Source: a virus. Taken from it: a stretch of 27,366 bases of DNA. The translations under genes were made by a program, and so were the position numbers. Position 1 is the stretch's first letter. Each line of letters begins with the position of its first letter. Of this stretch, positions 5,023-19,942 are shown one piece after another. Below the pieces are notes generated by a model, which worked only from the letters and a program-made list of their open reading frames with translations, searched no databases and was not told the origin of the DNA. The DNA lies in the IMG/VR virus record IMGVR_UViG_3300021961_000498, positions 1-27,366 of that record; one strand, given 5' to 3'.

Positions 5023-7977
5023 TTAGTTACAATTTATATTTATATTTATTCCAACATTGATTTCCAACGTATTGGATTGTTCACCATCCGCACATGCCAA
5101 ATTGTAAACAGTAACCGTGTTACCATTGATTGAGAAATAATATCCATCATTTATCAATTGAGCCAAATTCAAAATAAGTGCATTTCTCCATTGATTGTTT
5201 GTAGGAACTTGAGCTGGTCCGAATCCTGTGAAAAAAGAACTTTGAATCACTGTATTTCCACTTATTGCAACGTCCACATACCATGTGGACACTAAAGATG
5301 ATAATGCACAGTCTCCAAGTGTCAACCCTTGAGAAGTAAGATAAGTATTTAGTACTGAATATAATATTTCTTGGAATGAATTTACCGATGATGTTCCTCC
5401 AACCCAAGGATAGATAGAACAAGTGGCACTTTCTAATGTACAATCCCAAGCAAATAAATTTCCAATTGCCAAACATGGGTCATTTTCAACAGGAATAATC
5501 TGACATCCTCTTTGTCTTCTATATACAAACTTTTGTCTTTGTAAGGATGAGTTTTCATATTTAACACCTGTATTCCAAATGGTCGACGCAGGAATCATTT
5601 GTTGTGTTAATCTAATCCAATATGGTCCTAATCCTTCAACATATTCAATTAACTTTTTATAAGTGAAATTATCGTTAGGGATTCCAACAGTTTGATTGGA
5701 TAACAAATAATTGTAATAGATATTGAGTAAGTTTGGATATCCACCGGTCTTACCGTCCGTAGAATACCATCTATCCCTAACATTTATCGTTTGATTTATA
5801 AATGTTTGAGCAAACTCAAAGAAAGTTTTCTTATTGGCTTGTGGATTTATAAAACTCCAATCATAAGAACCTAAACTTGGATATGCCGGAGTCATACCTG
5901 AATTAGGAATAGGATAGTTGAAATTTCTGGACATTGTCCATACATCATATAAAATTCCTTGAGAAGGATTGATGAATAAATCGATGTTCTTTGCGTTCAA
6001 TATTAATTTCTCGTCCGATGCATAATAAAATGCCTCATATCCCGCATCTCGAGCAAGACGATAATCTTGGTCAACCCAACTCTTTTTGTTATCTGAAATA
6101 TATTTCAAATTAAAACCAAGATTCATATATGGGAATTGACGGAATTTGTCAAAATAAAGTTGACCATAAGTGAACGGTTGTAATGAAGTCTGAACTGTTG
6201 GATTATTTCCTGTGAACACAGATAGTGAATCATTAACTTCTTCAGGACTTCTGTGTTGAGGTGTTGATTCAAACCATCCAGCACCTTTCTCAAAGAAATA
6301 TTCTTCAGTCTGTAATGGAGCTTCAGGATAACCAAATCTATCAACAGGATAATCAACTCTTGTTTGGTCTACTAAATAAACTTGAGTCGAAGAAGTAAAT
6401 CCAGTATATGGAACCCCTAAAATAGTAAAGACGTTATTTTGATTGAATACTGTACTCTCATCAAGATATGTTCCTCCAGATATTTGAACAAATTGTTGTT
6501 CAAATTGTCTCATGTTTATTCTTTGGTCTGCAAGATAAACATGTTCATTAAATTCAATCAAAGCATCAGGAGCTCCCGCCAATCGAAGTGTAAACTCAAT
6601 TGAACGTCTTGTTCCTTTTGATTTGAATAAGTAAGCCGAATTCAATATCAAATTTCTATAGAATTGATAATTCAATTCAGTTGGCGTTAATTCTCTCGAA
6701 AAACCTGCATATTGTGTGACACCTGAAGATGCATAAACAGAATTCAAAAATCCTTCGTTTGTTATCGGAGAAATATTTGTACTCCAACCCAATGTCATTG
6801 CCAAATTTTTCAACAACATTGATGGTATGTCATTACCAGGATTGTAGTTCACTGAATTCATAAATGCTAAAGCATCAATGAATTGTTTTACTTGGTCAAA
6901 ACTTCTACCATAGATTTGTAAAATTTTATTTACCTTATGGTCAGGAGTATCAAACTCTAACAAAGAATCTGTAACCAAGAATCTCGCAATAAGGTTTGTT
7001 TTGTAACTATCAAATTCCTGAGCGATTTCTCCAAGTTGTTCAAGATAACGATTGTAGTTATTTGTTCGGATATCTAAATTCCAAATACCATCTTTAAACC
7101 ATGTGACACTTTTACTGACACTTGCAATTAGGTTATTATTTGTTTCAGTCGGAACATTGAAAGTTGCCGTATAAATTGGAAGTGCTAATCTATTGAGTAG
7201 GAATTTCTCAACCTCATCAAAATCTTCAGTAAAAGATTTTTCAGTATAATAATCGTTAGGTTTAATTAACAGAGTATCATAGGTGATGCTCTGTCCTGAG
7301 AACGGATTTCCAATAACAATCAATTCTATTGTACCAACACTCAAACTTTGAGATGGTGTAAAATCAACAATTGTATAAGGTATTCCATTATGATATAAAG
7401 CATAATCTCTATATCGGTTTGTAACGTCTCGTATTGGAGAAAATTCCTGTTCTCTATTTTGGAGATTTATTGCCGAGTTTGAACTGTAGTCTAATTCGAA
7501 TGGGTTTTTAATTCTGGCAACATTGATTGTCAATGTTGTTTCATTTTCCAAAGAATCATATGAAATGTTATATGCCGTTGAACCTGTTGAATAATCATAA
7601 TACGTTTCATCAATTTCCAATCCCGCAGGAAAAAAATTGATAATTTTTTGTACTGAAACTTCAAGTCTTTTCTTTAGTGAACCATATATTGTGAAGTTAG
7701 TAACCTCAGATAAATCATAATTTGGATATACTCGGAATTCTTTAGCAAGAAGTTCTCTTGATTGAATTACCGAATCCAAATCTAAATCTTGAAGACTGAT
7801 TGGATTTTGGAAAACACCAATATTGAAAGTTCGAGTTACCTTTTCACTCAAACTATATTGGAATTCAAAATTACCCTGAGTTAGTCCACCACCACGCACA
7901 GTCTGAAGACCTACGATATTATCGAAAGGGGTTCCCGCTCCGGAAGCTGCTGTATTTGGAATGAACTTTTTAGCCAT
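5023..7977 (-). CDS. Putative baseplate wedge protein with P2 gpI-like motif (possible T4 gp7 equivalent)
   Basis: This protein has 984 residues. Around residues 340-480 there is a region resembling the P2 gpI / phage tail protein family: a helical stretch, then an RN...Y.FKSKGTRRSIEFTLRL motif at about 441-466. In simple contractile tails gpI pairs with gpJ (gp6-like) and gpW (gp25-like) as the wedge, and in T4 that position is held by gp7, which is 1032 residues long. Size, motif and the presence of gp25/gp6 relatives in the same operon therefore suggest a gp7-type wedge arm. Against this, it is six genes downstream of gp6, not adjacent. Residues 889-984 form a module similar to the C-terminus of the next gene product. 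The gap to the upstream gene is 3 bp. Confidence 0.85.
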   Translation of the reverse strand: MAKKFIPNTAASGAGTPFDNIVGLQTVRGGGLTQGNFEFQYSLSEKVTRTFNIGVFQNPISLQDLDLDSVIQSRELLAKEFRVYPNYDLSEVTNFTIYGSLKKRLEVSVQKIINFFPAGLEIDETYYDYSTGSTAYNISYDSLENETTLTINVARIKNPFELDYSSNSAINLQNREQEFSPIRDVTNRYRDYALYHNGIPYTIVDFTPSQSLSVGTIELIVIGNPFSGQSITYDTLLIKPNDYYTEKSFTEDFDEVEKFLLNRLALPIYTATFNVPTETNNNLIASVSKSVTWFKDGIWNLDIRTNNYNRYLEQLGEIAQEFDSYKTNLIARFLVTDSLLEFDTPDHKVNKILQIYGRSFDQVKQFIDALAFMNSVNYNPGNDIPSMLLKNLAMTLGWSTNISPITNEGFLNSVYASSGVTQYAGFSRELTPTELNYQFYRNLILNSAYLFKSKGTRRSIEFTLRLAGAPDALIEFNEHVYLADQRINMRQFEQQFVQISGGTYLDESTVFNQNNVFTILGVPYTGFTSSTQVYLVDQTRVDYPVDRFGYPEAPLQTEEYFFEKGAGWFESTPQHRSPEEVNDSLSVFTGNNPTVQTSLQPFTYGQLYFDKFRQFPYMNLGFNLKYISDNKKSWVDQDYRLARDAGYEAFYYASDEKLILNAKNIDLFINPSQGILYDVWTMSRNFNYPIPNSGMTPAYPSLGSYDWSFINPQANKKTFFEFAQTFINQTINVRDRWYSTDGKTGGYPNLLNIYYNYLLSNQTVGIPNDNFTYKKLIEYVEGLGPYWIRLTQQMIPASTIWNTGVKYENSSLQRQKFVYRRQRGCQIIPVENDPCLAIGNLFAWDCTLESATCSIYPWVGGTSSVNSFQEILYSVLNTYLTSQGLTLGDCALSSLVSTWYVDVAISGNTVIQSSFFTGFGPAQVPTNNQWRNALILNLAQLINDGYYFSINGNTVTVYNLACADGEQSNTLEINVGINININCN
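5037..5044 (-). promoter_or_regulatory. TATAAATA box, possible T4-like late promoter
   Basis: The minus strand reads TATAAATA, the T4 late promoter core, ending 19 bases upstream of the ATG at 5015-5017. It also lies inside the 3' end of the upstream coding sequence, where ATA-AAT codons encode an Ile-Asn run (INININ), so the match may be a by-product of that protein sequence. Confidence 0.25.
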
Positions 7978-9970: not shown

Positions 9971-10743
9971 TATGGATTTACATATTCATACCATTTTATG
10001 GGATTTGCCGTTGTTCCCGCTCTTACCAACCCCGGGTAAGTTAATAATTCATAATTCTGCGTCGGATAATCTAACTTCACCTTATAATAAAAATACTCAT
10101 CCTGAGGAAAATCATATAAATTAGACAACGAAGTTTGGGGGACATTCATCATCTTGGTGAATTGACCCGTTCCACCATTGAAGAATTTCGCCGTCATATA
10201 AAAAGTATCAATGTTCAAGAAATTTCTTTTCTTCAACCAATAAATAAAGAACCCTTCTTTATCTCCAATATAATCCAATGAATATTTTGGTTTCTTTATA
10301 TCAACAGTCGTAGTCCCATTAAGAACCGATGACTCCACCATCCCCTGTTGCACCGGAATGATGATTGTAATATATGGTTGTTGGTCCCTAATCTGGGGGC
10401 TGTCATATAAATCCAATTTCCAAAAGGATTTACTAAACGGATTTCCATAATAATAGATTACTGACGTATCAAATTTTGGTAGATACGAATTTTGATAAGT
10501 ACTCAATGCAGTATCCCAAAGATAAAACTCATAGTTAGCAGAACTCTGAGTATTATTGTAGATTGCGTGTTCAAATCTACTAACCTCAAAATCCTCATCT
10601 CCATTAAGTATTTCTTCCAATATTGAAAGTTCATATTTCTCAATCGCTTGTTGTTCACCTGAAAAATCCCATATTTGTTCAACGGGTAAAATCAATTCAA
10701 CCTCACTGTTGGATATTGGTATTCTAAATTTATTCACAGTCAT
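9970..10743 (-). CDS. Unassigned tail/baseplate-module protein
   Basis: This protein has 257 residues, is rich in aromatic residues (many Tyr, Phe and Trp) and has no recognisable motif. The N-terminus is MTVNKFRIPISNSEVELILP, followed by an acidic helical stretch (EKYELSILEEILNGDEDFEV) and then likely beta structure. There is no signal peptide or membrane segment. Its start overlaps the end of the upstream 575-residue gene by 14 bases and its stop overlaps the next ATG by one base, so translation is probably coupled on both sides. This implies a stoichiometric structural partner of its neighbours, probably in the baseplate; that is inference. Confidence 0.85.
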   Translation of the reverse strand: MTVNKFRIPISNSEVELILPVEQIWDFSGEQQAIEKYELSILEEILNGDEDFEVSRFEHAIYNNTQSSANYEFYLWDTALSTYQNSYLPKFDTSVIYYYGNPFSKSFWKLDLYDSPQIRDQQPYITIIIPVQQGMVESSVLNGTTTVDIKKPKYSLDYIGDKEGFFIYWLKKRNFLNIDTFYMTAKFFNGGTGQFTKMMNVPQTSLSNLYDFPQDEYFYYKVKLDYPTQNYELLTYPGLVRAGTTANPIKWYEYVNP

Positions 10744-12457
10744 CGATAATTGGGTCTATTACAAAACCGGTAAAGGTTTGATTTATGTCAAATGACACAG
10801 ATTCAGAGAATAATCTGAAAGGAATATTTGTAAAAGGATAATGACAATCATTCAAGAAAGGATAATCAACCCCAACATTGTCAATGTCCACGAACCCATA
10901 TGGATATAAATCTCTCCATCTCCATTGTTGGTCATTTGTACTGAAATAAGACCAATAAGGAACCTCATTTACAGAATTGTTAGGTGCATTTTCAATATAG
11001 TTTGAAAAAGCCTTTAACGTAATTGGGTAATGTACTTGATAAAAATACCCATTTGGATTTGTTGTTTGGGTACCCATTACATTAAAACCTTTTTGATAAT
11101 AAGTTAGTTTATTTATGTAATTAGAAATCACACGTTCCTTTTGTTCGTAATCATTCCATTCACACCAATCTCCATACATAGTATCACCACTTTGACGTGG
11201 TAAGTTGACAGTAAAATCATAACAATCTCTTCCAATACACGGTGAGTTACCTTGAACATCTTTCGTGAAAGTACTTGTTTGATTATCTTCTACCGCATTG
11301 CCATTTGTCAAATCCCACCAAGGGTTTGTTTGACCAGAAATAACATTGAATTCCCACCCTCGTCTTAATTTATTGAAGTACCCAAAATAACCAACATTTT
11401 GAAATGTTGCAAAAATCTGTGTGAGTGGTTTTTTATTATTATCAAGTTGATTTGTAATTTCTAAATCATGAGCAAACGTCACATTATATGTGTTTGAACT
11501 TTGATATTTGGCAACTCTACTGATATTATTTGGTGTCAGCGATGAGAACTGAAATCCAGAACCGTCTTTGAATGGATTAAGCTCAAAACCATTTCTTGTA
11601 ATAATACTATCAACTGGATTTGTAATGATTTTATGTTTTCTGACATAATAAACTGACCTTGTCTCCGCAGAATTTGTTATATCGATAATTCTTTTGAAAA
11701 TACCTTCTTGACCTGAATTAAATGTTGTACCAGTATATCCAACATCATCAATATTGAAAATGTATTCATCCGAACCAAATTCTCCATTACCTAAACTATT
11801 AACTTGGAATGTTGTAATACCTGAATAATCGAAACTTAACTCCACATATTCTCCAATAGACAGTCCATGATTTACAGGGCAGACAAATTGAATTGTTGGC
11901 ATTCCATTAAATGAGGTATTTTCAATATAGAACGGTATACCATCACCCGAAACCCAAGGTTGTAATGAAGAACTATTAGTAAAAAAGTATTCCATAGGAA
12001 CCGAATAATCATTTTCATATGGATATGATAATGTTATAGACCAGTTATATGAGGAAGCACTTTTTGTTACAAAATTTAATTGTTGTGTATCAATATCTGT
12101 TCTAATAAATTCAAATTCTTGATATGACGGCAAACCACTCCAAATCCCATTTCCACCTAACAAAGGTGAAGAAAGTTCAGCGTTTACATAATACAAATTA
12201 TTTCTTAAGATTTCATATTCTGTTGAACCGACCAAATTGTTTTCATAAATGTATGATATTTTGATAGTTGGTCTAAAAACTTTTGACTTTTGTCTTTCAC
12301 CATCAAACAATGTTGCTAAGTTGACAGTCACAGTTCTATCATAATCAACCATGTCTACTTGTGTTTGTTGTAGACTTGTATTGATGTTAATATCTGCCTC
12401 AGGTGCCGATTTATATTGGTCTTCAGGTTTTACTACTATGTAAGAATTTTCGTTCAT
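10730..12457 (-). CDS. Unassigned large tail/baseplate-module protein
   Basis: This 575-residue protein is soluble, Asn/Tyr/Phe-rich and apparently beta-rich. It has no family motif I recognise. It has a small Cys set (CPVNHG; CIGRDCYDF; DWCEWNDYEQ; C-terminal DDCE) and a Trp-rich segment near the C-terminus (QQWRWRDLYPYGF). Its ATG overlaps the TGA of the 1700-residue gene in an ATGA junction (12454-12457), a strong sign of coupled translation. It probably assembles with that giant protein. No enzymatic motif is visible. Confidence 0.87.
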   Translation of the reverse strand: MNENSYIVVKPEDQYKSAPEADININTSLQQTQVDMVDYDRTVTVNLATLFDGERQKSKVFRPTIKISYIYENNLVGSTEYEILRNNLYYVNAELSSPLLGGNGIWSGLPSYQEFEFIRTDIDTQQLNFVTKSASSYNWSITLSYPYENDYSVPMEYFFTNSSSLQPWVSGDGIPFYIENTSFNGMPTIQFVCPVNHGLSIGEYVELSFDYSGITTFQVNSLGNGEFGSDEYIFNIDDVGYTGTTFNSGQEGIFKRIIDITNSAETRSVYYVRKHKIITNPVDSIITRNGFELNPFKDGSGFQFSSLTPNNISRVAKYQSSNTYNVTFAHDLEITNQLDNNKKPLTQIFATFQNVGYFGYFNKLRRGWEFNVISGQTNPWWDLTNGNAVEDNQTSTFTKDVQGNSPCIGRDCYDFTVNLPRQSGDTMYGDWCEWNDYEQKERVISNYINKLTYYQKGFNVMGTQTTNPNGYFYQVHYPITLKAFSNYIENAPNNSVNEVPYWSYFSTNDQQWRWRDLYPYGFVDIDNVGVDYPFLNDCHYPFTNIPFRLFSESVSFDINQTFTGFVIDPIIDDCE

Positions 12458-15400
12458 TCTTCTCCAATGTATAATTGTCTGAATTTATCCATAGCGTTTG
12501 CACCAACTTTCAATCCGAAATAGAAATACCATGGGGCACTTGTGAGAGTTTCATAGTTCTGTGAACCAGTGCTCGATGGGTCATACTGTCCTGAACCATC
12601 TCTTTGGAAAATATAACCTGTAGTATTTTCAATGAGCGTGTTGTTACCTATGAAGAAAGGTGCATTCAATCTATCCAAACTCTGATACTTGTCTGTAATA
12701 ATGTTAGAACCTTTTCTTGTAAATTGATTGTACTGAGTACCCCACGTATTTTTATCATTACCAAAAATTGAAGATTGCGCGGTTGGTCCCCACCCATTAT
12801 TCCTCCAAGGGTAAAAAGGAACCTCTTGCGATTTTGTTCCCAAATAATCTGAAATCAATATAGGTCCTGTAGTATTTCTGTCTATTCTTCTTGGACTAAC
12901 TAAATCTCTACTTGAAGGATAAGATGAATAAAATACTCCAAATACTGGATTACCGTCGCTGTCTGAAGTAATATAAATTGGGTTATCACCAAGTACAGAT
13001 GGGTCATCCACATAATTTCCACTATTCAAAGGAGAAATACCATACTGAGAATTAATTTGTAACATCTGTGCATAATCACCATCAACTCGTTGACCTGTTC
13101 TACTGAAATATCCACTTAGGGCGGCATCACCACTACTGAAGATACTCTCGATAAAATTAATATTGACCAATCTAGAAATTGTGAATAACTGAATTAGGTT
13201 TGTCACATCGTTCCAAGAGGTTGCTCCAAAATTATCCATTTGATATCCATAATAATTTGGTGTCTGATTAAGTTCATATGACCAATAATATTTTGGACCC
13301 ATATCCAAGATTGTTGTAGGGAACATCAAATTATATGTGTTCATTACCGTCATCGGTAATCCTCCAACGATGGTATTTGTTGAGGTTGGTGATTTTTTTC
13401 CTATAAATTCAGTTCCATTCCAAGGACTTGAACGATAGTAAAAATTATTTGAAGATTCTTCGAAAACAATTGTATCACCACAGAAAGTGTAATCAACATA
13501 ACTTACTGGTCCGATTTGTTTGATTTGTCTAACCTGTAATTTATTATTTATATCAAATACTGGTTTGTTTGTAAATGGGAATGCATATAAAGAACCATTT
13601 ACCCATGAGTTGACAAATATGTGTGAGAATACTCCTCTACAAATTGCGAATGTTAATCGGAACCTTTGAGCCCACTCAAAGTAATTTTGAATAGCAGGTA
13701 CTATTGTTCTGAGATAATTCCCTCTTTCGTCCGCAGATAATAAATCATAACAACCGTCCTGAACTCGTAATGGATTTTCGTTGTAACGACATGGGTCTAA
13801 TATTTCTAATTCACCATTAGCATTTATACTATAACATTTTAAAGGTACCATTCCTGCACAACTGAAGGTATTCAAAACCATATCAAAATTATTATCTAAA
13901 CCACTTGGTTCATATTGATTACCAAGACCCAAATCAATAGCAAATGGACTTAGTTGAGTAGATTGACCATTCTCTGCAACTGTATAAATTACAAAATTAT
14001 CATTTTGGTGTAACATCATCGTGTTACCACCATTCATATACTTGTCCCAACTTGTTATTTGGAATCCATCAGAACTTGGTAATCTGTCGGACCTCATAAC
14101 TAATTTCGCATTATTGATAGCACCAATAAACCCAATATTTACAGGTGGTAATTGTGGAAAAACTCGATAAGATGGGGAGTATAATCTACTATCCATATTA
14201 GTCATAAGTTCTTGAGTTTGAACCTTAGATGAACCAATTAGGGTACCTCCTTCAACAACACCTTGATAATCAGAGTTGAAGAATTTCATTTTTTGTTGTC
14301 CAACACCTGAGTCAGACATATTAGAATTTAAAAATTGTCCTAAACTTTTATCTCCATTGTATGGTCGGAAATTAGTAATGGACGCATCTAATGAAGAATA
14401 GAATCTTGGTTGATATGTTTGTACAGATGTAAAGGTGTTAGAATCGGGTACAAAGTTATATGGTGAGAAAAATATTTTAGAAGTACTGTATGGAACTCCG
14501 TGTGATTCAGGTGTTTTATAATTAGTATACCATGAACCTGAACCACTATTTTCTTGTATGGGGACATTAATAAAATATTCTCCAGTAGTTGCAATTGTTT
14601 GACTATTCATTGCATAACCATATAACTTTGATAAATCATAAGTTATTTCTTGTTTTTCAGTCCAAGGGTCAACACCTCTAGTCAAAAACACAATTTGATA
14701 ATCTTTCCACGTATCTCCTATCGAAAAAAATGAATCCAAAGTAACGTTACGTACGCTTCCATTTGACTTAATGTAGGTGACTTGTTGTTGTTTATCAAAA
14801 AGATATTTTCGTAACAACGAAGAGTTTGGACTCAAACTATTATATACGGATTCTGCCGTGTCAGTTGCAATAACTTGGAAGTATTCAAGACCTGTCTTAT
14901 AATTGTAAGTTCTATCTTGGTCAATACAATTTAAAAACACTTGAGCTGTAGATGAAACCCCATTAGGTTGGATATAGGTTACATTAGTAGAAATATTTAC
15001 ACCAGAAACTGATGTTCCAGTAATTGAATTAGTTCCAAACTGATTTTGAGATTGTCCTGAATAATTCAAATCATCTTGGATATCAGGGTTTCTGAATGTT
15101 AGTAGACTTCCCGGAGTTAGTAATGTACCTGGTTGACATACCAATATTAATGGCATATCAGTAAACGATTGTGAATTTGTTGTTGAAGGATTGATGGTTG
15201 TTGATATTATATTACTACTTTCAAAATACCTTTCTCTTAAATTCATAAGATTCAAAGATTGTGATAAAGGAATGTCTCTACCAACAATACCTTTTTTTTC
15301 ACTATTAGAATATGTTCTAACAACAGGTGTTCGAGCAACCTTTCCTCTATCATATTCATTATTACTTGTAGAGTTATTATTACTAGGAGTAACGTATAAT

Positions 15401-17556
15401 GGGTCAACAATAGGATAACCAGCAAGTCCATAACGAAAACCGGTTAAATCTGCAGTATATTTATTCTGTCGTCTGTTTGTAGTTCCAGTTGAGTAATCAT
15501 CAGGGTCAATTCCAACCGGCTCTGAGTCAGTAGGGTCACCGCCTAATTCACCCCACAAACTTTCCATATTGGAACTTATAAGTGATGATGAACTTTGCGT
15601 GGAATATACTAAAACACTATTTGTAGTAGAGATTCTTAATTTTAGAGCATTAGTTGTACTATTTCCACCAAAGGGATTTCCAGTAATTATAGGTAAATCA
15701 AGGTCTTCATTTGAACATTCACATGCATCACAAGTTGGATAAGACAACATCGGTAGTTGAAATCTTTTCAGATTAAAGTTAACTACAAGAGGTGCTACCG
15801 TTGCTATAAAGAACCCTGTCGCAATAGCCCATATAATACCCTGGGCAACCATCAAGTAACCCCAAATACCGATTCCAGCAGTGTTGGCAATACTCACAAC
15901 ACCATTTATTGTGTATATAATTGCATTATAACCGAGCCAAGCAGAGACAAAAATGGTAAGGAACCATTTGGCAATAGGCCAAAATTGAGCCAGCAAATGT
16001 AATATTGGTATAAGAACAACGGCAATTGGTGAAAATATTACCAATAACAAATTAACAATGAAAAACAAAAAGTCAAAATTTCTAACACCATCGGTAGCAG
16101 GAAATTTATAATTCTCAGTGGCACAGGTACTATCAGTAATTTCCTTAACACCAGTGAAGTTTCCTCGGTTCAAACCACGATAGTATTGGTCAATCAATCC
16201 TGAAACAGTATAGACTTTGTTATACTGAAATTCATAAAATGTATCTTTACAATCAATTGCATCTTGTGGATTTACATAACCACTCCAATCCAATCCAAAA
16301 TAATATGATTTTTGGAAATCTTGGTACGCAGATGATGATGGGAACAAATTATAAGCTGGGTCTACATCTGATGTAGTCCAACCATATTCCTTGACGTTTG
16401 GAACCAAAAAATATGCTCTTCTATTTTCAGATAATTCTAAAGATGGTGATTGATTATATTTTATTTTAAATCTGTACTTAGCCTTTGTTGGAACTCCAAT
16501 TCTTGGGTCGTTACTTAACACTTGTTCACCAAATTCATTTGTTGTAACATAATCTAAATTCATCGGAACCTCGGTAACCCAAGCACCATCTTGGTCTATT
16601 ACTTTACCTCCCTGTGGTAAAGGAGCTTGTTCTAAAATTGGCAATCCATTAGTATCTTGAAATATAGTTTGACGAATTGCTATAATATCACCCGGTCCTG
16701 TGGTCATATTACATATATCACCCATCTCTGATGGTGGCTGACAATTGGCTGAAATCGCTTTATCATTGACATTTGTCAATAAAGAACCCATAAAAGTTGC
16801 GGTTGGTTGTATTGTTATACCAACCTCACCAAGATTAAAATCTTCGCGAGCGATACTAATTTGACAAATTTCAGGCTGACCCCAAAAAGGCTGAACATTT
16901 ATAGATTTTACCAAATTTACAATTTGTGGTAGGCTACCCAAATCCGAAGATTGTGGAAAATTGACTCCATCTAGTTGGTCCGTAGTTGCTCTACCAATTC
17001 TAACTAAGTCTTGTGGTGACATAGAGAAAGGTCCCATATCGGACAAATCTAAATCCATCACTAGATTATAACTTCCAACAGGTACCCCCATAATCATGAA
17101 GTCACCACTACCATTTGTTTTTACTGTAAATTTATAATATTTGTCATAAACCTCTATCCATGCGGGATTTGTGAGAACCTCATTTCTACTTGGGAAAGTT
17201 CCAACAGGGATGTGTCCGCTATGTTGTGGTTCATTGGGAAGAAGATTATATCTATAACCGTCTACATTTAAATCAGACTCAGAGGTGTATGGATATAAAT
17301 CAGAAATTATTTCATTATCAGCATCGACATCTGATAATGGAACAAAAATAGAAAGTCTAGCATTTGGAATTCCAAAACCACCATTTGTGAATATACGTCC
17401 GACAACGACCCCGTAATCAGCACACATTCTCGTATACACCTCTTCACTTCGAACTTTGAGAGATAAAATTTCTAAAGATTCAAAGTCTTGGTCTATCTGT
17501 ACGTTGATTTCTTTATCAACCCCAACTTGGGTGCGTATTCTTACGGATTTCGACAT
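12454..17556 (-). CDS. Giant baseplate-module protein with carboxypeptidase-regulatory-like N-terminus and internal membrane-spanning block
   Basis: This protein has 1700 residues. At about 45-170 the pattern VVGRIFTNGGFGIPNARLSI ... NGSGDFMIMGVPVGSYNLVM resembles the beta-sandwich of carboxypeptidase regulatory-like / Cna-B domains (GKV.d..G.PI.nA.V ... d..G.F.i..vp.G.Y.l). Residues 495-593 are almost purely hydrophobic and hold three or four membrane segments, followed by a Cys cluster (CDACEC at 609-614) and a long, polar, beta-rich remainder. It lies directly after gp6, where T4 encodes gp7, and before six more tail-module genes, the first overlapping it by 4 bp. It could be a baseplate component, a host-membrane-contacting protein, or a tape-measure analogue; none is proven. 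It is one of only two genes here ending in TGA. Confidence 0.9.
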   Translation of the reverse strand: MSKSVRIRTQVGVDKEINVQIDQDFESLEILSLKVRSEEVYTRMCADYGVVVGRIFTNGGFGIPNARLSIFVPLSDVDADNEIISDLYPYTSESDLNVDGYRYNLLPNEPQHSGHIPVGTFPSRNEVLTNPAWIEVYDKYYKFTVKTNGSGDFMIMGVPVGSYNLVMDLDLSDMGPFSMSPQDLVRIGRATTDQLDGVNFPQSSDLGSLPQIVNLVKSINVQPFWGQPEICQISIAREDFNLGEVGITIQPTATFMGSLLTNVNDKAISANCQPPSEMGDICNMTTGPGDIIAIRQTIFQDTNGLPILEQAPLPQGGKVIDQDGAWVTEVPMNLDYVTTNEFGEQVLSNDPRIGVPTKAKYRFKIKYNQSPSLELSENRRAYFLVPNVKEYGWTTSDVDPAYNLFPSSSAYQDFQKSYYFGLDWSGYVNPQDAIDCKDTFYEFQYNKVYTVSGLIDQYYRGLNRGNFTGVKEITDSTCATENYKFPATDGVRNFDFLFFIVNLLLVIFSPIAVVLIPILHLLAQFWPIAKWFLTIFVSAWLGYNAIIYTINGVVSIANTAGIGIWGYLMVAQGIIWAIATGFFIATVAPLVVNFNLKRFQLPMLSYPTCDACECSNEDLDLPIITGNPFGGNSTTNALKLRISTTNSVLVYSTQSSSSLISSNMESLWGELGGDPTDSEPVGIDPDDYSTGTTNRRQNKYTADLTGFRYGLAGYPIVDPLYVTPSNNNSTSNNEYDRGKVARTPVVRTYSNSEKKGIVGRDIPLSQSLNLMNLRERYFESSNIISTTINPSTTNSQSFTDMPLILVCQPGTLLTPGSLLTFRNPDIQDDLNYSGQSQNQFGTNSITGTSVSGVNISTNVTYIQPNGVSSTAQVFLNCIDQDRTYNYKTGLEYFQVIATDTAESVYNSLSPNSSLLRKYLFDKQQQVTYIKSNGSVRNVTLDSFFSIGDTWKDYQIVFLTRGVDPWTEKQEITYDLSKLYGYAMNSQTIATTGEYFINVPIQENSGSGSWYTNYKTPESHGVPYSTSKIFFSPYNFVPDSNTFTSVQTYQPRFYSSLDASITNFRPYNGDKSLGQFLNSNMSDSGVGQQKMKFFNSDYQGVVEGGTLIGSSKVQTQELMTNMDSRLYSPSYRVFPQLPPVNIGFIGAINNAKLVMRSDRLPSSDGFQITSWDKYMNGGNTMMLHQNDNFVIYTVAENGQSTQLSPFAIDLGLGNQYEPSGLDNNFDMVLNTFSCAGMVPLKCYSINANGELEILDPCRYNENPLRVQDGCYDLLSADERGNYLRTIVPAIQNYFEWAQRFRLTFAICRGVFSHIFVNSWVNGSLYAFPFTNKPVFDINNKLQVRQIKQIGPVSYVDYTFCGDTIVFEESSNNFYYRSSPWNGTEFIGKKSPTSTNTIVGGLPMTVMNTYNLMFPTTILDMGPKYYWSYELNQTPNYYGYQMDNFGATSWNDVTNLIQLFTISRLVNINFIESIFSSGDAALSGYFSRTGQRVDGDYAQMLQINSQYGISPLNSGNYVDDPSVLGDNPIYITSDSDGNPVFGVFYSSYPSSRDLVSPRRIDRNTTGPILISDYLGTKSQEVPFYPWRNNGWGPTAQSSIFGNDKNTWGTQYNQFTRKGSNIITDKYQSLDRLNAPFFIGNNTLIENTTGYIFQRDGSGQYDPSSTGSQNYETLTSAPWYFYFGLKVGANAMDKFRQLYIGEE
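15778..16074 (-). other. Membrane-spanning block inside the 1700-residue protein
   Basis: Residues 495-593 contain approximate hydrophobic segments 495-523 (FDFLFFIVNLLLVIFSPIAV ...), 527-552 (WFLTIFVSAWLGYNAIIYTI) and 560-592 (GYLMVAQGIIWAIATGFFIA ...), separated by short Pro/Lys or Gly/Asn turns. The first and third are long enough to be one long helix or a bent pair each. The flanking chain is strongly polar. Confidence 0.85.
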
Positions 17557-17634: not shown

Positions 17635-19476
17635 TTATGAGAAGTTTGTTGTCTGATAATTCTTAACCCTTACAGTTATATCTTTTTGAGGGAACTTAAT
17701 CTGATAAATTTGGTTTGGCTCCGCAAAAATGGTATTGTCAACAAGTGCAATTTTTTTCGTTGCACTATCTGAATATGGCATAGATGTTTGTGCCGAACTA
17801 TACTGTCCACCAACTTTATTGTATATTGACAATTCACCAACACTCACAACTCCGTTTTCGGATTGTATAATTCTGTTTAGTTCTGAAACTAAAATATTTT
17901 CTCCCAATCCTCTGAGAGTAGAACTGAAGAATGTGGTAATTCTATCAATGATACTTGAGATAACCACACCTTGATTTTGGGTCGCATCCAACACCACCTG
18001 TACATCGACACCTAAATCGATTACCTGAGCAGAACCTATAGACACATAATCATTCAACATCCTATAATTTGAAAGGTACGTTGCAAGATTTTGTTTCAAT
18101 GTTTGTGAAACATCTGAAGTAAGATTTCCTGTAGGGTCATACGATAGAATATTTACGTTGATTTTGTTGTTGTTTTCTGTGATGGATACTTTAGCAGGTG
18201 CACCAAACTGTCCTGGCATATTTCTAATAATTGCCTCGTAATCATTCACGGTTACTGCTCTGTTTTGAGCAGCAAAGTTGAAGGTTACATAATTTCTAAC
18301 TTCTTCTGTTGATGGATATCCTGCACCACCAATAGCCGCGGTTACGTTGTTACATGCTAATGAATTAATAACAGATGTGTTAAGTAAGTCAGAAGGACCA
18401 TTGACAAAGAAATCAACTGCACCAATTTGGTTGATAACATTAACACCTAAATTAGTTGCTAAACCACCACCAATTCTATATTGAATGAACATGGTTGTAT
18501 TTGCTTGTGGTGTGTTACCCAATGACATTGAATTATTCTGATATCTCTGAATCTTCAATGGAACATCAAAACTTGTAAACTCTCTAAGTTGGTCTTCTGC
18601 AGTATTTGTACCACCACCAAATGTAATTTTTTGAAATCCTTCAGGTGTAAATTCAGTGACAAATCTATTTTGAGTCTGAATATATTTTCCAACTTTTATT
18701 GATGGATTGTCAGATGGTTTTGTTGGGTCTTCGATAAAAACTCTATCATCGGCTAAAGCTGACACTTCATACCATCTTCCTTGTGCCCCAAGAAATTCTT
18801 GAGCTGTAGGCACGTTTGCGTAAGAAGTCCCATCTCTTTGGATAATCGATGTGACACCCAAAACATTTTTTTCTGGTAGGAAGAATTCAAAAAATGGTCT
18901 GACATCATTTGGTGTAATAACTCTTTTGAATACCTTTGTAATTCCATTAACTACTGGTTCTCTTTTAGTGATTGTATAGTTTACCAAGTTACCATTAGAA
19001 TCAAAATTCGGTATCTTAAGTCTATTTGGGAAACCATCTTGATTGAATGGTGATGCAAAATTGATATCTTGTGTATTTTCAAAAACTTGACCAGCTCCTA
19101 AAATTTGACTACCTCTTCTTAAAATACCCAAGTATCTCTCATCTTCTTTATCACCAAATGCCGGTACTGTGATTGAAAAATCAACCAACGCAATTGAAGG
19201 TCTTTGACCAGGAATCTTCAAACCATAAGTTCTTGCAATATTATAAATGGAAGAACGTTGTTGAGCATATTGAAGTACAGTTTCTTGAATACTTCTATCA
19301 ATGTGATAATGTAAGTTATCGGCAACAGCAGCATTCAAATCCAAGAATACCGAGAATAATGACGCATCATTGAAATTATCAATGAGGTCTGGATAATAAG
19401 TCTTTGTATAATTTATTAACTCCTGACGAATTGATTGGAAATCACGGACTGTATAGGAAATTCTTCTCTCTGCCAT
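17635..19476 (-). CDS. 6: Baseplate wedge protein, T4 gp6-like (baseplate J family)
   Basis: This protein has 613 residues; T4 gp6 has 660. The N-terminus (RRISYTVRDFQSIRQELINY ... YYPDLIDNFNDASLFSVFLD) and the later EEVRNYVTFNFAAQNRAVTV with DYEAIIRNMPGQFGAPAKVS are typical of the gp6/gpJ wedge family, in which the DYE..I...PG segment follows a helical stretch. The protein forms the inner ring of the baseplate together with gp25- and gp7-type partners. It follows the gp25-like gene by only 4 bp, the same order as in T4. A 78-bp gap separates it from the giant downstream gene. Assignment is from recognised motifs plus synteny. Confidence 0.92.
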   Translation of the reverse strand: MAERRISYTVRDFQSIRQELINYTKTYYPDLIDNFNDASLFSVFLDLNAAVADNLHYHIDRSIQETVLQYAQQRSSIYNIARTYGLKIPGQRPSIALVDFSITVPAFGDKEDERYLGILRRGSQILGAGQVFENTQDINFASPFNQDGFPNRLKIPNFDSNGNLVNYTITKREPVVNGITKVFKRVITPNDVRPFFEFFLPEKNVLGVTSIIQRDGTSYANVPTAQEFLGAQGRWYEVSALADDRVFIEDPTKPSDNPSIKVGKYIQTQNRFVTEFTPEGFQKITFGGGTNTAEDQLREFTSFDVPLKIQRYQNNSMSLGNTPQANTTMFIQYRIGGGLATNLGVNVINQIGAVDFFVNGPSDLLNTSVINSLACNNVTAAIGGAGYPSTEEVRNYVTFNFAAQNRAVTVNDYEAIIRNMPGQFGAPAKVSITENNNKINVNILSYDPTGNLTSDVSQTLKQNLATYLSNYRMLNDYVSIGSAQVIDLGVDVQVVLDATQNQGVVISSIIDRITTFFSSTLRGLGENILVSELNRIIQSENGVVSVGELSIYNKVGGQYSSAQTSMPYSDSATKKIALVDNTIFAEPNQIYQIKFPQKDITVRVKNYQTTNFS

Positions 19477-19480
19477 ATTC

Positions 19481-19942
19481 TTAAATATTGATTATAACAA
19501 AATCTTTTGTGTTGAACACATCATTTGTTATTGAGTAATCTATTCTTACTGTAGCTGTATATTCCCCAACGTCTTGGTTGTACCTTCTCACCCCTGGGTC
19601 AATAACGTTTCCTGCTTCAGTTGCGGTCAAACCTGCCTCTTCACCGGTAGGTGCAGTAATAGATATGTTTGTTAATTGTAAATTTGGCATGTATTTCTCA
19701 ACAGAATCCCTTATCTCAGCCTCAATACTTTTGAAGGTTGGTCCATCAAGTGGTTCAAAAATATATTCCAATAATGCAGTTCCAAAATCAGGTAGAAAGT
19801 ATCTTGAACCTTTTCTCGTCAAAAGTAAGTGAATTAAATTAGCTCTTATCTCTTCTGCGGTATATTGGGTTAACTCCATATACTTTCCCGTTTGTGAATC
19901 TACGAAAGGAAATTGAATACCATATGTTTTTCCGTTTGCCAT
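19481..19942 (-). CDS. 25: Baseplate wedge protein, gp25/gpW-like
   Basis: This protein has 153 residues; T4 gp25 has 132. The core LTRKGSRYFLPDFGTALLEY at 41-60, followed by IFEPLD, matches the gp25/GpW family: an L-t-x-x-GeR-x-f-P-x-f-G-x-x-L-x-x-x-l-F-e-P pattern. Residues 67-100 hold the usual helix plus beta strand (IEAEIRDSVEKYMPNLQLTN). This protein sits between sheath and gp6 in contractile baseplates. It is the first gene after a strong terminator, so it likely starts a new transcript, presumably late. The ATG at 19940-19942 has a TATTTATGA motif 3 bases upstream and no clear Shine-Dalgarno sequence. Confidence 0.93.
   Translation of the reverse strand: MANGKTYGIQFPFVDSQTGKYMELTQYTAEEIRANLIHLLLTRKGSRYFLPDFGTALLEYIFEPLDGPTFKSIEAEIRDSVEKYMPNLQLTNISITAPTGEEAGLTATEAGNVIDPGVRRYNQDVGEYTATVRIDYSITNDVFNTKDFVIINI

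Follow-up and report, generated by a model that had tools for sequence, protein, structure and literature searches.

A conserved hydrophobic block in a tail-module protein encoded next to gp6 in uncultured myophages

The 27,366-base window, a complete IMG/VR contig, encodes a 1700-residue tail-module protein (P0001) with a hydrophobic block. Our analysis supports the view that this block is universal and under selection, in a conserved tail-module gene adjacent to gp6. The block is membrane-like in energy and composition, and its hydrophobicity, which is conserved, is sufficient for membrane insertion. We tentatively propose, as a reading that falls somewhat short of probable, that P0001 belongs to the baseplate and that its block forms a membrane-inserting hairpin, which assumes part of the role that tape-measure membrane segments have in other phages.

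Gene neighbourhood and predicted structure of P0001

All tail genes of the window are located on the minus strand, comprising the gp25-like gene, the gp6-like gene, P0001, P0002, and further tail genes that run down after P0002 to P/T/S-rich, fibre-like proteins. The stop of P0001 and the start of the next gene overlap by 4 bases.

19481 to 19942, minus strand: gp25-like baseplate wedge protein / sheath initiator
17635 to 19476, minus strand: P0010, gp6-like baseplate wedge protein (Baseplate_J; hhalign to T4 gp6, 95.6%), upstream neighbour of P0001
12454 to 17556, minus strand: P0001, 1700-aa tail-module protein with the hydrophobic block (from the ORF and its translation, relatives, and synteny)
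10730 to 12457, minus strand: P0002, conserved downstream neighbour of P0001 (139 of 144 loci), no assigned function
5023 to 7977, minus strand: P0006, corresponding to a large gene located downstream of gp6 in both immuto and Mel-JY01 (hhalign 96.1%, 191 columns)

A gp6 gene was found directly upstream of P0001 in 204 of 208 loci, and P0002 followed it with the frequency given above. Judging by this synteny and by the co-translation geometry, P0001 appears to be a structural baseplate-module protein of contractile-tailed phages. The sequence-only reading had likewise placed the block in a structural tail protein, and this agrees with a gene that is conserved next to gp6 and a block that is universal in its relatives.

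Two side observations concern other genes of the contig. P0012 (20048-21754, minus strand) occupies a reductase large-subunit slot between the helicase and gp25 genes; in other members this slot holds a distant homologue (L008:5094-7526, about 24% identity), so the gene seems to have been exchanged in place. P0008 and P0009 (3-1718, minus strand) contain long PSVTPSIS / TPTP low-complexity repeats, and a 177-kb relative encodes a 1754-aa T/P-rich protein (L164:13469-18733) with 37% Thr and 19% Pro.

Within P0001, the following features were delimited, in the order of the protein:

16810 to 17424, minus strand: first beta sandwich, predicted to be transthyretin / carboxypeptidase-regulatory-like, residues 45-249 (pLDDT about 90)
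16177 to 16809, minus strand: further beta-rich region, broadly similar in type to the first, residues 250-460 (AlphaFold2, fold search)
16123 to 16125, minus strand: Cys478, just before the block, conserved with the CxxCxC motif
15778 to 16071, minus strand: hydrophobic block, residues 496-593 (hydropathy; AlphaFold2 helices 496-558 and 564-593)
16009 to 16071, minus strand: first strong membrane-type segment, residues 496-516 (Kyte-Doolittle (KD) 2.86; lowest insertion-energy sum, -1.57)
15997 to 15999, minus strand: His520, inside the hydrophobic core, in 78 of 84 sequences
15781 to 15861, minus strand: second membrane-type segment, residues 566-592, the variable half of the block (KD 2.26)
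15715 to 15732, minus strand: CDACEC (CxxCxC), residues 609-614, clade-specific (101 of 144 non-redundant relatives)
15457 to 15714, minus strand: predicted disordered linker, residues 615-700 (pLDDT under 50)
12457 to 15324, minus strand: predicted mixed beta/alpha C-terminal half, residues 745-1700, without a recognised relative

The hydrophobic stretch of about 100 residues that had been reported at 15778-16074 was thereby confirmed, as was the CDACEC cluster near it. The 19-residue KD peaks of P0001 were 2.86 (residues 498-516) and 2.26 (residues 574-592), and its best 85-residue mean hydropathy was 1.62, whereas none of 1000 shuffled versions of P0001 exceeded 1.36. The core of the block (residues 494-530) begins with the first segment, spans 34-38 residues in every aligned relative, and has a mean KD of 2.07 (37 residues) with low hydrophobic moments of about 0.06-0.34. 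Only two windows of P0001 reached membrane-like insertion energy, the stretch between them being amphipathic; on the approximate per-residue scale used, the lowest 19-residue sum was the -1.57 of the first segment, and the family median was -1.8. Among the 155 predicted proteins of the 177-kb relative, the P0001 orthologue had the most hydrophobic 35-residue window (3.0; next 1.64), and in the tail region of that genome it was the sole tail gene with such a block.

AlphaFold2 modeling of residues 1-700 with 84 sequences (pLDDT 78, pTM 0.63) predicted two beta-sandwich regions, the two helices of the block (pLDDT mostly 78-92), and then a disordered stretch. The block is therefore modeled as two consecutive helices forming a hairpin; with two helices and two insertion-grade windows, the three or four helices suggested earlier were too many. 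Residues 45-249 matched many TTR-like folds with VIA Z scores of 5.5-7.5, a middling range that the tool calls common (best Z 7.5, rmsd 2.2 over 80 residues), and a Pfam fn3_3 match was below its cut-off (E 0.045). Searches of P0001 against Pfam and PHROGs yielded nothing usable, and sequence profiles of both halves had no match among solved structures. For the model of the C-terminal half (pLDDT 71), the fold search returned no match worth naming, which does not amount to evidence of a new fold.

Cys478 and all three cysteines of CxxCxC occurred together in 80 of the 84 aligned sequences. The motif is a possible metal or disulfide site bracketing the block, and together with Cys478 it could tie both ends of the hairpin together. 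We dropped CxxCxC as a universal partner of the block, given that it was present in only 27 of 63 distant relatives; since many of these lack it, the block is the more general feature. A second conserved cysteine cluster (positions 1233, 1241, 1256, 1269, and 1306; 13639-13860, minus strand) lies in the C-terminal half and is possibly a metal or disulfide site as well.

Conservation of the block and comparison with wedge proteins

When relatives were made non-redundant at 90% identity (n=144), a 19-residue KD peak above 1.6 was found at the same place in all 144. This single-window test was too lax, being passed somewhere by 72 of 200 gp6 orthologues, and 30-residue windows with KD >1.4 were used instead; these occurred in 124 of 126 P0001 orthologues versus 0 of 152 for gp6, 1 of 112 for P0002, and 0 of 22 for P0006. 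In the 84 aligned sequences, no other part of the N-terminal half was as poorly conserved as the block, yet the block stayed hydrophobic and charge-poor. Median pairwise identity was 0.22 for the block, 0.32 for its first 37 residues (the core), and 0.57-0.63 for the flanks. Among close pairs, pN was lower than pS throughout, with the block more relaxed than its flanks. Hydrophobicity kept despite sequence drift, together with pN<pS, indicates that a physical property is selected and not particular residues, except for His520.

These patterns bear on the main competing view, which we consider somewhat unlikely: that the block forms a hydrophobic core of helices, for example three or six packed hairpins, which is buried within the assembled baseplate and never meets lipid. 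A buried interface usually keeps its residues, whereas here mainly hydrophobicity is conserved; length and helix number vary widely among relatives (1 to 5 KD peaks); and the mean KD and low moments of the core make it more uniform than amphipathic bundles. On the other hand, one AlphaFold2 helix of 63 residues is longer than a bilayer, His520 is conserved inside the core, and core bundles of wedge-subunit helix-turn-helix arms are standard in contractile tails (PMC10457771; PMC10996793). The variable number of helices and the amphipathic middle of the block in this protein also speak against a membrane hairpin.

A precedent for burial is T4 gp7. It had been claimed that T4 wedge proteins have no such block, and this was overstated in that gp7 has one strong segment (residues 886-904, KD 2.07) whose energy sum of -0.17 counts as inserting on the scale used. 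The GenBank record of gp7 describes its C-terminus as a 'predicted integral membrane domain', and the protein is present in the solved baseplates 5IV5 and 5HX2, a soluble particle. A segment that scores as inserting yet sits in a soluble baseplate is the strongest caution against the insertion reading of P0001. Like P0001, gp7 is large, is encoded right after gp6, and has one strongly hydrophobic segment; unlike in P0001, this segment is near the C-terminus, and homology was not detectable (hmmsearch E 0.99, hhalign probability 0.1). The P0001 profile matched none of the T4 wedge proteins. Membership of P0001 in the gp7 family was thus rejected for lack of homology, although its gene directly follows gp6. 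P0006, which matches the large gene of immuto, Mel-JY01, and LR756508, would be a better gp7 candidate by gene correspondence, though it had no detectable match to T4 gp7 itself.

Separate tape-measure genes and their membrane segments

The sequence-only reading had also raised the option that P0001 combines baseplate and tape-measure roles. Its large size and a membrane block as found in many tape measures fit this option, but we regard it as very improbable, because P0001 is largely beta and the search for a separate tape-measure gene yielded a helical candidate of 599-1132 aa in 33 relatives. Of 20 main-clade genomes, 19 had the candidate, and a wider profile detected it in 11 of the 21 distant genomes. 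In the 177-kb relative, the sheath, tube, and hub genes are followed by a strongly helical 645-aa protein; immuto shows the same gene order, and its gene in that place is annotated as a tape-measure protein. The helix index was -0.093 for P0001 versus 0.106 for T4 gp29 and 0.112 for the tape-measure candidate P0019. With this index, the beta-rich N-terminal model, and the separate candidate gene, P0001 was rejected as the tape measure.

In 24 of the 33 relatives having P0001, the tape-measure candidate was without any 19-residue segment of KD >1.6. Two or more segments were found in G028, G029, G011, and G012, all 844 aa or longer, and a single borderline one in G031 (816 aa); the remaining four had one weak segment or a near-identical copy of it. 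In G010 and G012, both genes are likely from one phage, which is not certain because P0001 and the tape measure are on different contigs of one assembly. The long tape measures of immuto and Mel-JY01 contain 8 and 6 hydrophobic segments, and the P0001 profile found no match in either phage (a Flavobacterium and a Microcystis phage, respectively). T4 gp29 has one segment with KD >1.6, and no tape measure was identified in LR756508.

Across the 33 relatives, the hydrophobic extents of tape measure and P0001 were negatively correlated (Spearman -0.40, nominal p 0.02, shared descent ignored). The gp6 tree had long branches and few starred forks, so the correlation was left without correction for descent; because of shared descent it is only suggestive. 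The exchange is not strict, with G028 having both and G042 little of either, and the independent changes are few. A block that is universal in P0001, with a tape measure usually without one, suggests the baseplate, in these phages, as the carrier of the membrane-inserting step of DNA entry and strengthens the membrane-insertion reading, which is plausible.

Phage group, hosts, and a proposed mechanism

Two IMG/VR profile scans returned at least 598 and at least 582 relatives, in each case among 600 candidate stretches, and the P0001 family comprises more than 580 loci from uncultured myophages. A scan of species genomes added 3 loci. Two of them are on Bacteroidota MAGs; the third (L161) is a P0001-type phage contig in the Prochlorococcus single-cell assembly AG-409-L21 and may reflect a cyanobacterial host for one branch or co-sorted particles. 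Searches of named phages by tblastn with five family queries found no family member and so no cultured phage with P0001; the only hit of the L060 query, a ribonucleotide reductase, was at chance level (E 3). BFVD contained one likely member, the uncharacterised A0A8S5LA66 of Myoviridae sp. ctPuP5 (39% identity over 458 columns, Foldseek E 2.7e-49), a probable relative that was absent from the phage collection searched.

The nearest named gp6 relatives belong to phages of Flavobacterium (immuto) and Microcystis, and also to an uncultured 484-kb phage. P0007 (1718-5017, minus strand; 1099 aa) carries SprB repeats (Pfam E 1.1e-24), which are best known from gliding adhesins of Flavobacterium, and is possibly an adhesin-mimicking tail fibre. 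The ribonucleotide reductase small subunit P0013 (21764-23044, minus strand) carries an ATP-cone domain at its N-terminus (Pfam E 6.6e-19); the same architecture has been described for Leeuwenhoekiella blandensis, a member of the Bacteroidota (PMC5794259). A host among the Bacteroidota is therefore likely.

After the punch of a contractile tail, the usual candidate for taking DNA across the inner membrane is the tape-measure protein, which is currently credited with the membrane step (PMC9022992). The diffocin tape measure has predicted membrane helices (PMC10996793), and PMC11948020 cites a proposal that links the hydrophobic stretch of T4 gp29 to this step. P0001 shares with the tape measures that have membrane segments (diffocin CD1366, Pam3 gp16, phiCD508 gp59, T4 gp29, immuto, and Mel-JY01) hydrophobic helices in a large contractile-system tail protein and a proposed membrane conduit; unlike them, it is beta-rich and encoded next to gp6, and the candidate tape measure is another gene. 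A second precedent, compared by description, is Cis13 of a thylakoid-anchored contractile injection system, which is baseplate-bound and has a membrane helix (PMC8894136). In Cis13 this is one C-terminal helix that anchors the machine in the producer cell, whereas P0001 is much longer and has an internal hairpin. The reading that needs the fewest assumptions is that the membrane-contacting element of the baseplate comes from P0001.

Under the membrane-hairpin proposal, we infer a virion location, wedge contact, shielding, insertion, and a DNA-entry role for P0001. The N-terminal half of the protein would be attached to the gp25/gp6 wedge through the two beta-sandwich regions, and the hairpin between the halves would stay covered in the virion. 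Upon opening of the baseplate, the hairpin would insert into the host membrane and anchor or open it for the tube and DNA, so that P0001 would take over at least part of the role of tape-measure membrane segments in this phage group. The membrane concerned might instead be the inner membrane of the producer cell, to which the block would anchor the assembling baseplate or a non-virion form of the protein. The membrane-type composition of the block, the tethering of related systems by the helix of Cis13 (PMC8894136), and the fit of the data to either membrane agree with such an anchor, which we judge improbable, as the structural tail-module synteny favours a part of the virion; an additional role in assembly would be compatible with it.

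A broader and rather doubtful extension of the host-membrane hairpin proposal is that, in a large group of uncultured, probably Bacteroidota myophages, the membrane-spanning element for DNA entry has shifted from the tape measure to a dedicated baseplate protein, and that the host membrane is opened or gripped by several hairpins, which are bound to the baseplate and surround the tube, and not by an ejected tape measure. A wedge neighbour that always has membrane segments, in phages whose tape measure mostly has none, provides a natural test of the tape-measure idea, and P0001 serves as a marker gene for this large uncultured phage group.
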